Under the pieces are notes generated by a model, which was given only the letters and a program-made list of their open reading frames with translations, searched no databases and was not told the DNA's origin. Below are positions 300-6,153 of a DNA stretch of 6,339 bases, one piece after another. Made by a program: the position numbers and the translations under genes. How positions within the stretch are numbered: position 1 is the first letter of the stretch; every line of letters begins with the position of its first letter. Origin of the DNA: Candidatus Poribacteria bacterium (lineage in GTDB: Bacteria; Abyssobacteria; SURF-5); assembly GCA_016215705.1 (NCBI GenBank), contig JACRIR010000191.1:1-6339 (forward strand), read 5' to 3'.

Positions 300-1607
300 A
301 TGCAACGGCAACACAAACAAGTGAGGTTGCTGATGGCTCTGGTCTACATGGCCTTTGCCTTCGCCTACAGAATCATGATGATCCCTCCCGGCGTCAACGA
401 TTCGCATCTGCCTGACCTGACAGGAGACTTGATGATGAACTACGACATCGTCTCCGAGATAATAGGAGCAAAGTCCATCCTGGACGGCAGCTTCAGCATG
501 TATGTCGGAAGATATTCCCGGGATATCATTCCCAACGGCGTAGTGCTTCCTTATCCGCCTCTCACCGCCTACTTGCAGACCCCAATAGTCTATGTCGGAA
601 CCAGGCTCGGGTTGGACCCCTTCGGAATGACAATGTTCATGATTTGCGGATTGCCGTACATCGTGCTTGGGGCGCTATGCGCTTTGCAGGCCGGCTATGT
701 CTTGAGAAAATGTCTCGGCGTATCGGACGAAATGACGATCACGGCCACAGTATTCCTGATTCTATTCTCCTCGCTCATGTTCTGGGTCGTCACATATGCG
801 GCTCGGTTCGAATACGTGGCCGCGCTTTTCCTGCTGCTGGCAATGTCCGCGCTTGGGAGCAACCGATATGGACTGGCCGGTATTTGCCTCGGGTTGTCAC
901 TCATGACGAAACAGTTGGCTTTGCCCGCCGTTATGGCATTCGTGATCGTAGCGTTGTTCGGAGCGCTGAGGAAGGAAATCGAACTTCGGAAAGCGTTTCT
1001 TCTGCTCGTGACGATTCCCATCCCGTTTGTCATGCTGGTCCCTTTCTACATTGCGAGCCCCGAAGGCGTTCGTGAGGGAATGCTCAAAACGCCTTCACTA
1101 TTCCCGATAATGCATGTAAGTTTTGTTAACCTCTGCGCTCAGGTGGGAAAACTCGTGTTCGAGGAAAGGGCAGTCGGAGAATTCCTAAAGCTTCACTCGA
1201 ATTCGATCATTCTGCTGTTATGCGTGGGCTACATTCTCGCGGTTGTAAAATCGAAGAGGTTGAGAATGGACTCGAGCCGTTTCTGCGCGCTCGCCGGACT
1301 GGCCTCTTTCTTGTTGGTGATCCTCACCAAGTATACGTACATCGACAAATACTCGGTCCCCGCATCGGTGTTCGTCATACTCTGGGGCGCTTCCCGCAAA
1401 CCCGGCTTCCCGTATGACGCTTTGTGGTTCGTAGTACTGCAATCATTCATCCTCGACCACGTCCCCGTGATTTGGAAACAATATGTCGGCCTGATCTTCT
1501 ACAGCATGGTATTCGCCTATGTTCATTACATGGCGTTTACCGGAAGCGACAATAAATTGACAATCGCCGATTCGCGCGAGCCCCCTCCGGAAGTCGTTGG
1601 ACCTTAG
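300..1607 (+). CDS. Multi-pass membrane protein, GT-C/GT87-like glycosyltransferase
   Basis: 435 residues, mostly hydrophobic, with roughly ten to twelve predicted membrane segments (clearest around 9-28, 107-133, 146-166, 170-184, 207-222, 232-251, 301-316, 328-343, 374-390 and 394-412) and a short polar C-terminal tail. The layout resembles GT-C enzymes, which move sugars from polyprenyl-phosphate donors to acceptors outside the cytoplasmic membrane. After the first helix comes an acidic extracytoplasmic loop (D34, D39, D43, D49, E53), then a YPPL motif (85-88) before an amphipathic stretch, an RFEY (169-172) helix, and a GLSLMTKQLALP segment (198-209) like the glycine/lysine/proline motif of GT87 (DUF2029) and related families. 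The ATG at 300 has GGAGG at 285-289, ten nt upstream. It is transcribed alone and is convergent with the transporter. Donor and acceptor are unknown. A non-enzymatic polytopic protein is possible. Confidence 0.8.
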   Translation: MQRQHKQVRLLMALVYMAFAFAYRIMMIPPGVNDSHLPDLTGDLMMNYDIVSEIIGAKSILDGSFSMYVGRYSRDIIPNGVVLPYPPLTAYLQTPIVYVGTRLGLDPFGMTMFMICGLPYIVLGALCALQAGYVLRKCLGVSDEMTITATVFLILFSSLMFWVVTYAARFEYVAALFLLLAMSALGSNRYGLAGICLGLSLMTKQLALPAVMAFVIVALFGALRKEIELRKAFLLLVTIPIPFVMLVPFYIASPEGVREGMLKTPSLFPIMHVSFVNLCAQVGKLVFEERAVGEFLKLHSNSIILLLCVGYILAVVKSKRLRMDSSRFCALAGLASFLLVILTKYTYIDKYSVPASVFVILWGASRKPGFPYDALWFVVLQSFILDHVPVIWKQYVGLIFYSMVFAYVHYMAFTGSDNKLTIADSREPPPEVVGP

Positions 1608-1706: not shown

Positions 1707-2930
1707 CTACTCTTTCGGCGAACGCACGAAACAGAGTGCGAGAAGGCTGGCAATCATACAGGCCGCGGCCACCGGAAAGATCACGCGGTAACCCGCCATG
1801 TCTATCAACTTGCCCCCGAGCAAAGGTCCGAAAATCTGCGGCGCAGCCATACTGATGATGCCGATACCCACAAACTCGGCCGTGCGCTTTTCAGGGATGA
1901 GATCGAGCATGTAAGCGTATCCGACTCCCATAATCGCTGCAAGCGGAATTCCGGTGAGCCCCACGGTGACAAACGCTTGCGTCAAATCTTGCGAAAACCC
2001 CACCAGTAACTCACTCGCCGCCCAGAATACAATCGCGCACAATAGAATTCCTTTTCGTCCCATCCGGTCGCCCAGTATGCCCAAAGGCAACACCAGCGCC
2101 GTTTGCACGACTGACATCATCATCGGAACCAGGAGCGACTGTCCTTGAGGAACCTTCAGATGTTCGGATAAGAACAGGGTTAGAAAGGGCGCCGGAATCC
2201 AGAAACCGAGCCACCAGAGAAACTGCGCGACGAAAAACATCATCGCATTTCTCTCCTCCAGTATGCCGGACAAATGGCGCAAAGGGCTGAAAGCCTCCAG
2301 CGGTTTGATTGAGGGTTCGCCTGAAAGCTCATTCGAGAGTTCGCCCGCCGCCTCCGCCTCGGGGAGAAACTTGATGGCGATCAACGCGCTGCCGGCCATG
2401 ACGGCGGCCACGGTGTAAAACGTCGCTACCGGATGCTCATCCCAGATGCGCGAACTAACGAGAAAGCTTGCAATCAGACCGATGCCGCCGCACAGGTTCA
2501 TGACCCCGCTGGCAGTGCTGCGCTGGTGAGGCGGCGTGATATCGGGAAGCAAAGACATATAAGGAGTCTGTGCGGCGTCAATAAAGACATACATTACCGC
2601 CGATATTGCGCAGACGATAGCGAATGCTTTCAAATGCGGGAGGACTGCGACGCAGAGGGCCGCGCCCAGTATTCCAAAGAATACATATGGTCTGCGGCGG
2701 CCGAATCGCGTCGAGGCGCGGTCACTCAAGTAGCCGACGATAGGAGGAATGGTGGAGCCGGAGAATCCCGCCAGGCTGAGCACGAGTGAAATCTTGAATT
2801 TCGAGTCGGTGAACTTATCGAGAAACAGCGGCATCGAGCCGGAGTAGAATCCCCAGAAGAAGAGCACCCCGAACCATCCAAGGCCGAGGAGAAGCATTCT
2901 TGTTGCAGTGATCCTACGTGGCGTGGTCAA
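1707..2930 (-). CDS. Major facilitator superfamily transporter, GPH/SLC45-like
   Basis: 407 residues, the usual size of a 12-helix MFS carrier. The loop between helices 2 and 3 carries G66-YLSDR-(5 residues)-GRRRP81, the expanded motif A typical of glycoside-pentoside-hexuronide and SLC45/sucrose-type carriers. A second motif A, GDRMGRKG (287-294), marks the equivalent loop in the C-terminal half. PYMSLLPDITPPHQRSTASG (123-142) is a further family-like segment. A charged loop (about 191-228) links the two six-helix halves. The likely job is proton- or cation-coupled uptake or export of a small solute, perhaps a sugar, across the inner membrane; the substrate cannot be read from the sequence. 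The start is TTG: GGAGGG (2945-2940 on this strand) lies nine nt upstream, whereas the first in-frame ATG (residue 12, 2897) would lose the N-terminal segment and has no better site. It is monocistronic and ends 99 bp from the convergent glycosyltransferase-like gene. Confidence 0.88.
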   Translation of the reverse strand: MTTPRRITATRMLLLGLGWFGVLFFWGFYSGSMPLFLDKFTDSKFKISLVLSLAGFSGSTIPPIVGYLSDRASTRFGRRRPYVFFGILGAALCVAVLPHLKAFAIVCAISAVMYVFIDAAQTPYMSLLPDITPPHQRSTASGVMNLCGGIGLIASFLVSSRIWDEHPVATFYTVAAVMAGSALIAIKFLPEAEAAGELSNELSGEPSIKPLEAFSPLRHLSGILEERNAMMFFVAQFLWWLGFWIPAPFLTLFLSEHLKVPQGQSLLVPMMMSVVQTALVLPLGILGDRMGRKGILLCAIVFWAASELLVGFSQDLTQAFVTVGLTGIPLAAIMGVGYAYMLDLIPEKRTAEFVGIGIISMAAPQIFGPLLGGKLIDMAGYRVIFPVAAACMIASLLALCFVRSPKE

Positions 2931-3153: not shown

Positions 3154-3202
3154 TTGGCTGCGGCTATGCCGCGCTGTGATCTCTGTGCCTTTGCGGCATA
3201 TT
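3154..3202. repeat. Partial copy of the dispersed module also found at 5236 and 5400
   Basis: Positions 3154-3179 match 5400-5425 at 25 of 26 bases in the same orientation, and match 5236-5261 nearly as well. The module has a small GCGGC-TAT-GCCGC hairpin (3160-3172). It is followed by CTCTGTGCCTTTGCGG (3181-3196), another phrase I recall from intergenic filler repeats. The module runs up to the stop codon of the DUF4276-like gene at 3203. Confidence 0.65.
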
Positions 3203-3817
3203 TCAGACCTTTGTCGCCACGAGTTGCTCGAGTCGCCGAAGACAGCGGCTCAGGCTGTCGGAGAATCGGGCCGCCACCTCTGGACGCCATCCTCTCTTGG
3301 TGTCATTCACGAACTGGATCAACCTGGAATTATATGCCGGCCCCACCTTGCGGCCGCTCTTGACCCTGGGTATCATGTCTTCGCGGATATCCTTGCGGCG
3401 TGACGCGCGCGCAATTTCGATCATCGTGTGTTTTGGGTCGGGCAGCGCTTCGGGATCACGCGGGATGAGCGAGACGGGCACATTTAAGAAATTGGCGAGA
3501 CGCTCGGCGTCGGCAATAAGCCATGCCTCGATCTCGCGGACAACAATTCGGAAACAGATGCCCTGAGCCGGGTCGGGAAGCCATGCCCTCAGGAACGAAG
3601 GTGAGCAATCGGTGTCGTGATCCAGGTCAACAAGCACAATCCACGGACTGATACGAGCCGCCCGGTTGTATCCGTCAATCTCTTTCCGGAGGAAGGGTTT
3701 TCCGTGCTTGCCGTAGATTGTCCCCGGCGACGCGCCCGCCCACTGTATTAGGCGTCGCAGAACCGCCTCGTCCACAAGTCCTTCAACTGCGCCGGAGATG
3801 ATGACAGCGTTCGGCAT
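3203..3817 (-). CDS. DUF4276-like protein with TOPRIM-style acidic motifs, partner of the ATPase
   Basis: 204 residues, soluble, with no signal peptide or membrane segment. The N-terminus has a beta-strand then VEGLVDEAVLRRL (11-23), placing E12 and D16 as in the first TOPRIM motif. IVLVDLDHD (60-68) supplies D64, D66 and D68, as in the TOPRIM DxD. Then come features I associate with DUF4276: VVREIEAWLIAD (92-103), a DPEALPDPKH segment (121-130), GPAYNSRLIQFV (159-170) and a C-terminal SLSRCLRRLE (188-197). TOPRIM folds bind Mg2+ and cut or rejoin nucleic acid, so a nuclease or nucleotide-processing role is plausible but inferred. The ATG at 3817 lies 9 nt after the ATPase stop with only a weak GGGGA upstream, so translation is probably coupled. 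It is the second gene of the operon and ends against an intergenic repeat module. A purely structural or regulatory role for the fold cannot be excluded. Confidence 0.82.
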   Translation of the reverse strand: MPNAVIISGAVEGLVDEAVLRRLIQWAGASPGTIYGKHGKPFLRKEIDGYNRAARISPWIVLVDLDHDTDCSPSFLRAWLPDPAQGICFRIVVREIEAWLIADAERLANFLNVPVSLIPRDPEALPDPKHTMIEIARASRRKDIREDMIPRVKSGRKVGPAYNSRLIQFVNDTKRGWRPEVAARFSDSLSRCLRRLEQLVATKV

Positions 3818-3826
3818 GGTTGTCGG

Positions 3827-4978
3827 TCAATCCCCAAGAAGCGTCAGTTGTTCGACCCTGTGGGGGCGAGTCCGGGGAATAACGGCATCGGCAAGAACCG
3901 AGCCTCCCTCAAGGAGAGCGCGAATTTCATCGAAGCTGCTCGCAGGGGTTACGGTTGTGCCTTCACCGGGCTGGAGGAGGAGAACTTCATCGAGCCCGAT
4001 GCCTTCGTCGCGCAGCAGATCACTCGAATGCGTGCTGATGAACATCTGCCGGGCGAACCTGCGTTGGATACGCGCGAACATCTGGGGAATGAACCTGACC
4101 ACTTCCGGATGAAGCGACAACTCGGGCTCTTCTATGAGCAACGGGCCGCGTCCGTCGAGCGCCGCCCAAAGCAGCCCGAACAGCCGGAGTGTCCCGTCGG
4201 AGAATTGTTCCTCTGTCTGCCACGCGCCGCGACGCCGCCAATGTTCATACTTGCCATGGAGGTGAGGCGCTCCCTTCGCATCGCGCTTGAGTTCCAGTTC
4301 CTTTAACTGCGGCACGGCGACACATAGAGCGTTCACGATGCGCTCCAGCCGGGCATTTCTCGTCTTGTCCGGCGTGCGGGAGATTTGCTCGAGAAAATCG
4401 CCGCCGAACGGATCGCCGCGCCTGCCGGCCGACCGGTCCGGCTCGCGAATCAGTTGCGGAACGATATGAAGATAACGAATGGACGAAAAGAAATCCGCAA
4501 CCTTGCGGAAGACCTTGTTGGCGTAAACTTGCTCGAGGTAGGTCTGTGTGAGGCGCTCCGGGTCGGCTTTGTCCTGTCTGTCGGGACGCGAGAGAATTCC
4601 CGACCCGTTTCTCATGACTGATTCCTTCTTGATGATTGGGCGACGCAGGTTATCCTGTCCGAAACTGAGTTCGTATTCCCAGGTTGAGGCGGCTTCGCCC
4701 GTCCCAATGCGGGTCCGGATCAAAATGTCTGAGCCCTTGCGAGCAGCAAGGCAACGCAGGTTCGATACGCCTCCGCGCCTGCGTACGGCTTCCTGGAATC
4801 CTCCGCCGACGGAAACAATGTCGTGGAGAAAGCGAAAGGCATCCAGAAAGTTCGATTTGCCAAGCGCGTTTGCGCCGACGAGAAACACGCGACGTTCCAG
4901 ATTGACGCCGACTGACGTGAAGTTGCGCCAGTTCTCCATCCCGATATGGGTGAATCGAAGAGTTCCGCTTTTTGTCAT
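3827..4978 (-). CDS. AAA family ATPase (AAA_21/SMC-like, ABC-type head)
   Basis: 383 residues counted from the ATG at 4978; numbering below uses the upstream ATG at 4984 (385 residues). The N-terminus reads as a RecF/OLD-like start (FTHIGMENWRNF, 11-22). Next come Walker A GANALGKSN (37-45), a variable middle region (about 60-255) in place of long coiled coils, an ABC signature FSDGTLRLFGLL (261-272), Walker B PLLIEEPELSLHP (281-293) with catalytic E285/E286, and an H-loop STHS (317-320). All ATPase motifs look intact. Such proteins dimerise around ATP and often control a nuclease partner. Here the next gene, 9 nt downstream, is TOPRIM-like, which supports a two-component complex like PARIS or RloAB. 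There is no fused TOPRIM domain, unlike OLD or GajA. Two ATGs are available: GGAAG abuts the one at 4984 but sits 6 nt from the one at 4978, so 4978 is preferred. I see no strong promoter. The biological role is unknown. Confidence 0.88.
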   Translation of the reverse strand: MTKSGTLRFTHIGMENWRNFTSVGVNLERRVFLVGANALGKSNFLDAFRFLHDIVSVGGGFQEAVRRRGGVSNLRCLAARKGSDILIRTRIGTGEAASTWEYELSFGQDNLRRPIIKKESVMRNGSGILSRPDRQDKADPERLTQTYLEQVYANKVFRKVADFFSSIRYLHIVPQLIREPDRSAGRRGDPFGGDFLEQISRTPDKTRNARLERIVNALCVAVPQLKELELKRDAKGAPHLHGKYEHWRRRGAWQTEEQFSDGTLRLFGLLWAALDGRGPLLIEEPELSLHPEVVRFIPQMFARIQRRFARQMFISTHSSDLLRDEGIGLDEVLLLQPGEGTTVTPASSFDEIRALLEGGSVLADAVIPRTRPHRVEQLTLLGD

Positions 4979-5018
4979 TGCCATCTTCCGTCGGCTGCCT
5001 GGTTGGGATTCCTATCTG

Positions 5019-5080: not shown

Positions 5081-5110
5081 TCCGCGTTCATCTGCGTGCA
5101 TCTGCGGCTA
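5081..5110. repeat. 10-bp periodic motif, three units (TCTGCGTGCA type)
   Basis: TCCGCGTTCA, TCTGCGTGCA and TCTGCGGCTA follow one another with exact 10-bp spacing. The third unit forms the start of the first 164-bp duplication unit. It is intergenic and low in complexity, and is treated as non-coding. Confidence 0.6.
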
Positions 5111-5260
5111 AGAATGTCTTTTGTTGTTTCTTCTTCTTTCCCCAAAATCCGTGCTAATCCGTGCCAATCCGTGGTTGCACGCTTCTTCTTTTTCTTCCCG
5201 CCCTCGCGCCCTGGTGGTGAATCCTTTTCGTTGCCTTGGCTGCGGCTCTGCCGCGCTATG
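5097..5260. repeat. 164-bp tandem duplication, unit 1
   Basis: This segment and 5261-5424 are direct tandem copies, 160 of 164 bases identical. The four differences (5162/5326, 5180/5344, 5207/5371, 5258/5422) are all transitions. The unit contains a T/C-rich tract, three AATCCGTGNN decamers (5146-5175), a CGCCCTGGTGGTGAATCC phrase and the GCGGC-TCT-GCCGC hairpin module. Frames read through it are repetitive, so it is judged non-coding. Confidence 0.9.
5146..5175. repeat. 10-bp tandem array, AATCCGTGNN x3
   Basis: AATCCGTGCT, AATCCGTGCC and AATCCGTGGT follow without gaps, and the array recurs at 5310-5339 with one base changed. It is related in style to the ATTCGTNNN array at 3025. Such motif trains are, from memory, abundant in intergenic DNA of several environmental phyla. 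Confidence 0.7.
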
Positions 5261-5424
5261 TGCATCTGCGGCTAAGAATGTCTTTTGTTGTTTCTTCTTC
5301 TTTCCCCAAAATCCGTGCTAATCCGCGCCAATCCGTGGTTGCATGCTTCTTCTTTTTCTTCCCGCCCTCGTGCCCTGGTGGTGAATCCTTTTCGTTGCCT
5401 TGGCTGCGGCTCTGCCGCGCTGTG
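5261..5424. repeat. 164-bp tandem duplication, unit 2
   Basis: Second copy of 5097-5260. It begins directly at the end of unit 1 and stops at the end of the hairpin module. After 5425 the sequence is unrelated. The stretch 5425-5535, up to the methyltransferase stop codon, holds no gene I can support, only a small CGGC-GCA-GCCG dyad (5493-5503). Confidence 0.9.
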
Positions 5425-5535
5425 AACAGGAAAGCTCAGTACTCTCTCAAAATATCAGCTTGCAGCCTAAAAGTCAAAGGCGGGCCGAAGAACGGCGCAG
5501 CCGCAACCAGGAACAGGGAACCCGTCGGAGATGTG

Positions 5536-6153
5536 CTATCGTTTGAAGGACGACATGCAGTAGTGCTCTCCCGAATCGAGATGAATGTCGGTTGTCTCGA
5601 AATCCTTAAAGACCTCCCGCAACTCGTCGGGAGTGAAGTAATGGTGCGGCAGCCCCTTTTCGAGTCCATCCTGCGGGACGAAGGTTCCTGGTTCAATCTC
5701 CTGATATGTTTCGCATACATTCCTCTGTTTAGGCACGGTCACAAAGACGAATCCGCCTTTCTTGAGAACTCGCGCTATTTCTCCGACAGTTCTTCTGATG
5801 TCCGCAATCTTGGCATGATGGATAACCTGTATCGAGATAACGGCGTCAAAGAAATCATCTTCATATGGCAATCTCTCCATCATGCTTTGGAGTTGTAGAT
5901 CGGCTGTCAATCCTTCGCCGCCTAGCCGGGTCCGGGTTATCTCGACTCCTTCCGGCGAGCTATCCAAACCATAAACCGAGAAGCCGTTTTGGGCGAGATA
6001 CACTACGTGCCTTCCCGATCCGCTGCCCAGGTCGAGGACGACTTGCGCCCCTCTGCTCTTCAGCAGTTGTACAATGCCGGCCATGTCTTCATGCGGCTCT
6101 CCAAAAAACGCGCCGTGTTCCTTGAAGATTTCATTCCACGGGTTCCGGTCCAT
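5536..6153 (-). CDS. Class I SAM-dependent methyltransferase
   Basis: 205 residues, the size of a stand-alone UbiE/Methyltransf_11/25-type enzyme. Motif I VLDLGSGSGRH (39-49) is the glycine-rich SAM-binding loop. D64 in VYGLDSS (61-66) sits at the end of strand beta-2, where the acidic residue binds the SAM ribose. The segment LPYEDDFFDAVISIQVIHH (95-113) is the usual motif II/III region, followed by IARVLKKGGFVFVTVP (126-141). The C-terminal part (HYFTPDELREVF, 171-182) is also typical of the family. It transfers a methyl group from S-adenosylmethionine, probably to a small molecule in the cytoplasm; the acceptor is not evident. The ATG at 6153 has GGAGAG (6166-6161) seven nt upstream. It is in the same orientation as the ATPase operon but separated from it by 551 bp of repeats, so it is likely a separate transcription unit. 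Confidence 0.9.
   Translation of the reverse strand: MDRNPWNEIFKEHGAFFGEPHEDMAGIVQLLKSRGAQVVLDLGSGSGRHVVYLAQNGFSVYGLDSSPEGVEITRTRLGGEGLTADLQLQSMMERLPYEDDFFDAVISIQVIHHAKIADIRRTVGEIARVLKKGGFVFVTVPKQRNVCETYQEIEPGTFVPQDGLEKGLPHHYFTPDELREVFKDFETTDIHLDSGEHYCMSSFKR

Follow-up and report, generated by a model that had tools for sequence, protein, structure and literature searches.

Related systems

OLD and GajA are enzymes which cut DNA; PARIS is triggered by Ocr-like proteins of phages and cleaves tRNA. The name HEC-01 reportedly stands for Hma-embedded candidate 1 of PADLOC-DB and is said to go back to Payne et al. 2024 on bioRxiv; to our knowledge, neither a phage phenotype nor a mechanism is known for this system. 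In the literature searched, we found no phage phenotype for HEC-01 either, and the system was not the main subject of the papers found. Several HECs, among which HEC-06 is named, are antiviral; HEC-01 is not named there (PMC12988326). Hma has been given a new name, DUF499-centred BREX-related (BR) systems, and TOPRIM-linked OLD-ABC dyads in BREX/BR loci were described as backup effectors (PMC12839542). AriB is a two-metal tRNase (PMC12409363), and the active site of BpOLD consists of E400, E404, D455, D457, T506, E508, and K562 (PMC6755086).

Here, we describe a pair of genes, A and B, in a window which comprises an entire contig of 6339 nt (G000:C127) from a fragmented genome assembly. With a probability of roughly 0.7, in our estimate, they form a split-OLD defence module of the HEC-01 type, which combines an ATPase sensor with a separate two-metal TOPRIM nuclease. 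The candidate system to which the window pair belongs had been catalogued before, and the pair is one of its well-conserved members; what is new is a motif in the tail of A.

The locus and its assignment

An earlier note, made from the sequence of the window, had placed two intact genes, 9 nt apart, at 3203-4978. Both open reading frames were confirmed on the minus strand; the end of the span had to be corrected, as position 4978 corresponds to the second in-frame methionine of A and the frame reaches 4984. The genes and their neighbours are:

3827..4984, minus strand: gene A, OLD/SMC-type ABC ATPase of 385 aa (HEC-01A), from PADLOC, Pfam AAA_21, and the predicted model
3818..3826, minus strand: 9-nt gap between the stop of A and the start of B, from the ORF coordinates
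3203..3817, minus strand: gene B, TOPRIM-like predicted nuclease of 204 aa (HEC-01B, DUF4276-like), from PADLOC, the predicted model, and VIA-align
1707-2930, minus strand: MFS transporter, 3' neighbour of the pair, from a Pfam search
300-1607, plus strand: hydrophobic membrane protein of 435 aa, weakly GT87-like (sub-threshold GT87 match, E 0.11)
5536-6153, minus strand: small methyltransferase, from a Pfam search

A and B presumably share one transcription unit. Among the window neighbours (P0003-P0005), i.e. the MFS transporter, the GT87-like protein, and the methyltransferase, there is no evident defence gene. The protein encoded at 300-1607 is perhaps a membrane glycosyltransferase.

The intergenic regions contain repeats. 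A 164-nt tandem duplication of text like 'AATCCGTGCCAATCCGTGG', whose copies are 98% identical, is located at 5096-5423, just upstream of A. Genome-wide, 34 matches to this text with at most two mismatches were counted versus 0 for the reversed control, which indicates a dispersed intergenic repeat family. Moreover, a 26-nt repeat like TTGGCTGCGGCTATGCCGCGCTGTGA occurs three times (3154-3179, 5236-5261, 5400-5425), on both sides of the operon.

Protein A matched the PADLOC model HEC-01A with E 3.9e-156 (residues 9-381 on profile positions 1-379 of 382) and protein B matched HEC-01B with E 1.7e-62 (residues 5-200 on positions 4-198 of 204); the latter model was also matched by 86/86 relatives of B. 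The combination of A and B is thus one that had been listed before as a candidate for defence. An unlisted pairing is ruled out, since both genes match HEC-01 models.

Protein A

The ATPase motifs of A are:

4853..4876, minus strand: Walker A, GANALGKS, residues 37-44; G37, N39, G42, K43, and S44 invariant
4190..4201, minus strand: ABC signature, SDGT, residues 262-265; S262, G264, and T265 invariant, D263 in 78/79
4121..4141, minus strand: Walker B, LLIEEPE, residues 282-288; E285 and E286 invariant
4028..4030, minus strand: H-loop, H319, invariant

A comparison of 79 relatives, among which all residues listed as invariant are strictly conserved, corroborated the four motifs that had been read from the sequence, including the glutamate pair of Walker B. 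A matched Pfam AAA_21 with E 3.3e-33 and scored against the models AbiLi (E 1.6e-23) and MAD3 (E 4.7e-18). Its predicted model has a pLDDT of 89.6, and VIA-align found PtuA, Rad50, SMC, and AriA at Z-values of 18.7-21. We propose that A is an ATP-binding ABC sensor, which would dimerise like Rad50, PtuA, and AriA. In one related locus (L078), A appears to be broken up into a pair of neighbouring open frames at 1076-1792 and 1796-2509, which may be due to an internal stop or an assembly error.

Protein B

The candidate active-site residues of B are:

3782..3784, minus strand: E12, TOPRIM motif-1 glutamate, 86/86 sequences
3770..3772, minus strand: D16 (ExxxD), candidate second-metal ligand, 80/86
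3620..3628, minus strand: D64-L65-D66, TOPRIM DxD; D64 in 86/86, position 66 occupied by D (73 sequences) or N (13)
3527..3529, minus strand: E97, start of the helical domain (helix 96-101 after strand 87-92), candidate second-metal ligand, 86/86
3431..3433, minus strand: K129, candidate catalytic lysine, 86/86

B had been described as a DUF4276-like protein with a set of TOPRIM residues, and both statements have to be qualified. Its own match to DUF4276 (PF14103) reaches 21.1 bits (E 4e-4) and stays below the gathering cut-off of 30.2; among its relatives, however, 72/86 match at E <= 0.01, the best one at 1.5e-8. DUF4276 is not named in the literature searched. E12 and D64 are invariant, as are E97, K129, R90, W99, G159, and Y162, and D16 and D66 are mostly kept. 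In contrast, D68, which had been counted among the TOPRIM residues, is conserved in merely 52/86 sequences and is thus not part of the site.

In the predicted model of B (pLDDT 90.9), strands and helices alternate as in a TOPRIM domain, and a helical region follows. At or near the top of its VIA-align results, in alignments that span the whole chain, are the C-terminal region of BpOLD (6nk8; 160 residues aligned, Z 8.8, rmsd 3.9), AriB (8ux9; 163 residues, Z 8.5, rmsd 4.2), PH0156 (169 residues, Z 8.4, rmsd 4.2), and XccOLD (6njv; 158 residues, Z 7.9, rmsd 4.0), where Z-values near 8-9 are barely above the usual noise level. In the top rows, which are OLD C-terminal regions and AriB (Z 7.6-8.8), 154-163 residues were aligned; most Rossmann-type rows below them cover about 100 residues of B. 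Foldseek alone gave many Rossmann-type rows and no match at E <= 0.001 for the model of B; the fold was therefore assigned by considering the full-length match, the motif positions, and the conservation jointly. When PDB sequences were searched with a profile, no link between B and OLD emerged, and hhalign of B with OLD TOPRIMs gave only 57.6%, with VEGxxD and VDLD in register. The earlier note had suggested a check of the TOPRIM fold; the confident model, whose best matches are OLD C-terminal regions and AriB, speaks in favour of this fold. The model supports a composition of TOPRIM fold plus helical domain, as in OLD-type nucleases.

The residues E12, D16, D64, D66, E97, and K129 follow each other in the same order as in BpOLD, and E95-x-E97 is spaced like T506-x-E508. 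The BpOLD counterparts of E12, D64, E97, and K129 are E400, D455, E508, and K562, a correspondence deduced from order, spacing, and secondary structure and not from superposition. We propose that B acts as a TOPRIM nuclease in its own right, whose predicted active site is of the two-metal, OLD-like type. By analogy with RecR, whose TOPRIM domain is non-catalytic, B may also not be a nuclease.

The C-terminal tail of A

The tail of A, which has low pLDDT, contains a pentapeptide:

3836..3850, minus strand: QLTLL, residues 379-383, C-terminal, putative sliding-clamp-binding motif, from the tails of relatives and the consensus in PMC9690074

In bacteria, the consensus motif for binding to the sliding clamp is QL(S/D)LF, typically located at the C-terminus (PMC9690074). 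Of the 80 relatives of A, 50 have an exact QLxLF within their final 14 residues versus 0/772 neighbouring proteins, and a relaxed form was found in 60/80 versus 3/772; in the body of A, QLxLF never occurred among the 80 relatives. Q, L, L, and F are retained around a variable middle position, at which A, S, T, M, P, and V occur. This enrichment at the C-termini suggests that the module may be tethered to the replisome. Judged from the sequences, clamp docking of A via its QLxLF-like tail is plausible, if somewhat doubtful, and we hold with the same reserve the wider idea that HEC-01 could be a replisome-tethered immune sensor whose ATPase would sit on the host sliding clamp. In that case, phage replication which takes over or disturbs the clamp would cause A to fire the TOPRIM nuclease, the clamp serving as the guarded or recruiting element. 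Such a tether would favour DNA over tRNA as the substrate of B.

The main rival to clamp docking, to which we give even odds, is a tail that works as a docking peptide directed at B or at the fold of A itself, the likeness to QLxLF being coincidental; it competes with the clamp part alone and leaves the split-OLD assignment untouched. Conservation spans the entire tail, including P374 outside the pentapeptide, as would suit a docking peptide. The tails of distant members of A in an independent sample are QLALAF, QLEIHL, KLELHL, LLSLF, QLSLF, and QLELELW, and some members are without the motif; KLELHL, LLSLF, QLELELW, and the motif-less cases again favour the docking peptide, but several deviant tails, e.g. 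QLALAF, fit known hexapeptide variants of the clamp motif. Further points against a coincidence are the frequency of the exact consensus at the extreme C-terminus, its absence from the body of A and from the C-termini of the 772 neighbours, and the low pLDDT of the last residues of A. Archaea were considered as a contrast, since hosts with PCNA are expected to lose QLxLF; A occurred in only 4/392 archaeal genomes, a small sample, with the tails ELAWF, QMELF, QTELF, and none, and one of these A proteins has no B nearby.

A sliding-clamp-like tail on the sensor is not mentioned in the literature found on these systems. If the tail binds DnaN, this would suggest a route by which sensors of the OLD type locate phage DNA during its replication; as the new element, it renders the mechanism testable.

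Pairing, distribution, and evolution

Relatives of B were detected in 9/98 sampled genomes, namely in 3/3 members of the window's family and in about 6/95 genomes elsewhere; in 9/9 cases a close relative of A adjoins B. With a strict pattern, 407 relatives of B were retrieved from a collection of 84,980 species. For the best 80 of these 407, A is located directly upstream of B in 79/79 evaluable loci with upstream DNA. In view of both samples, A and B are paired far more often than chance would produce. Relatives of B with A upstream occur in more than 20 phyla; the earlier expectation of a widespread pair has held. One IMG/VR contig (L120) carries a pair; a search of phage records (50,697) and plasmid records (72,556) found no close relative of B.

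The pairwise distances of A and B are correlated (r 0.84), a value as high being reached in 0/500 permutations. On the tree of A, the phylum labels require 44 changes, with a minimum of 20 and a mean of 53.5 after shuffling; this scatter fits frequent transfer, with the caveat that bins can be contaminated. Between the window copy and the copies of two genomes of its family (G001 and G002), dN is about 0.2 and dS at least 1.3, which is near saturation; these values indicate purifying selection. The neighbours of the pair in the window are absent near both of these copies. Fold comparison, active-site conservation, and obligate pairing agree in supporting what the earlier note had postulated, a split-OLD-like ATPase with a separate TOPRIM nuclease.

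Obligate pairing would also be a property of a toxin-antitoxin or plasmid-exclusion system, in which B is the toxin (e.g. a tRNase), A the neutraliser, and maintenance rather than phage defence the main effect. The model of B is structurally related to the two-metal tRNase AriB (PMC12409363), and the PDB deposit of AriA is labelled 'antitoxin'. However, the plasmid and phage records contain no close relative of B, and a large ATPase which has kept all hydrolysis motifs exceeds the needs of neutralisation. We regard this explanation, which overlaps with abortive infection, as improbable.

Genomic context

In a Holophagae contig (L097), the gene order is HmaA - A - B - HmaB - HEPN/DUF499 ATPase, i.e. 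the pair lies inside Hma. A Hma-type SNF2/NOV_C helicase was found in 17/56 loci with more than 3.5 kb of upstream DNA and was missing in 39/56; a DUF1156 methylase occurs in 8 loci. Around the window copy and two copies of its family lie genes of metabolism and others without a defence role; many further loci are likewise outside Hma-type islands. PADLOC families flanking the pair numbered 119 near versus 64 far, these counts being small. A survey of the neighbourhoods, as proposed in the earlier note, thus confirmed the pairing throughout and a location in defence islands for some relatives, but not for the window copy. Accordingly, the suspected anti-phage role is backed indirectly, by the HEC-01 model matches and by relatives in Hma/BREX-related loci, and not by the surroundings of the window copy, which is outside a defence island.

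Several related loci contain further candidates. A pAgo-like protein is encoded directly 3' of A/B in a Nitrospirales genome (L095, 10971-12215), with a Hma-type helicase upstream. In L061, a HEC-05-like fusion of GmrSD_N and Schlafen AlbA_2 (10625-12760) directly follows the pair on its 3' side; this pair is located after a DUF1156 methylase and before a DUF499 ATPase. The genome G001, which has a separate HEC-01 copy, contains in L167 (658-9152, G001:C36) the genes HmaA, PDC-M38A/B, and HmaB. PDC-M38A/B is a different pair of ATPase and small partner, the latter beginning with MANRLIFEGVND; this is another two-gene candidate embedded in Hma and distinct from the HEC-01 copy. In L168 (1740-9430, G002:C80), a HmaA-type helicase is followed by a TmtA-like protein of 1390 aa in the place of HmaB.

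Alternatively, the pair could serve replication-coupled repair or genome maintenance as an analogue of RecF (ABC ATPase) and RecR (TOPRIM), with A docking on the sliding clamp at forks, B processing or marking DNA, and the defence context being secondary. The C-terminal QLxLF in A, its predicted Rad50/SMC-like fold, and surroundings of non-defence genes, both in the window and among its family copies, would be in line with such a role; the pair is also kept by 3/3 sampled family members, as a housekeeping gene would be. Yet only about 6/95 other sampled genomes carry the pair, it is scattered over phyla, relatives lie inside Hma/BR loci, and B keeps the full catalytic set, unlike RecR. We therefore consider a repair function unlikely. 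For the defence module speak the obligate order of A then B, the recurrence in Hma/BREX-related loci, and the patchy spread over phyla; against it speak the 39/56 evaluable loci without a Hma-type helicase and the non-defence surroundings of the family copies.

If the pair is a defence module, A would act as the sensor and hold B inactive in a PARIS-like manner, but with B belonging to its own TOPRIM family. An infection cue would alter the nucleotide state or the contacts of A; B would then be released or activated and cut nucleic acid, whereupon the infection aborts or phage replication stops. For this scheme, we infer a complex of A and B, activation by A, DNA or RNA as the substrate, and an anti-phage outcome. 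HEC-01 is a widespread candidate in many phyla, and the analysis provides for it a specific split-OLD model in which the catalytic residues are named.

Comparison with known systems

HEC-01 is the closest system: A and B align with its models almost from end to end, the genes are adjacent and on the same strand, and relatives are found between HmaA and HmaB (L097). The window copy itself stands alone outside any Hma locus, so that the Hma embedding holds at the level of the family. The dyads of PMC12839542 likewise consist of an OLD-ABC ATPase and a separate TOPRIM gene in Type-1 BR (Hma) loci; the canonical ones are equated there with PARIS, and this HEC-01 clade may be among the dyads.

PARIS also combines an ABC ATPase with a separate TOPRIM nuclease, and the models of A and B resemble AriA (Z 18.7) and AriB (Z 8.5, close to the noise level). 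The proteins differ in size, B having 204 aa versus about 305 for AriB, and A 385 aa versus 464 for AriA; there was no AriB model among the PADLOC hits of B and no AriB family among its Pfam matches at E <= 1, and membership in PARIS was rejected. With OLD and GajA, A and B have in common the ATPase class and the TOPRIM-helical catalytic layout. They are, however, two polypeptides versus one fusion, and the helicase GajB is absent, the 3' neighbour being the MFS transporter; the pair is thus neither OLD nor Gabija. AbiL/RloAB and MADS possess an AAA_21/OLD-type ATPase with a separate partner, as is the case for A and B. Here, B had no AbiLii/RloB match at E <= 1, and A reached 65.6 bits versus the MAD3 NCBIfam cut-off of 420, which excludes both memberships. 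Although the pair belongs to none of them, it may work in a manner similar to PARIS, Gabija, AbiL, and MADS.
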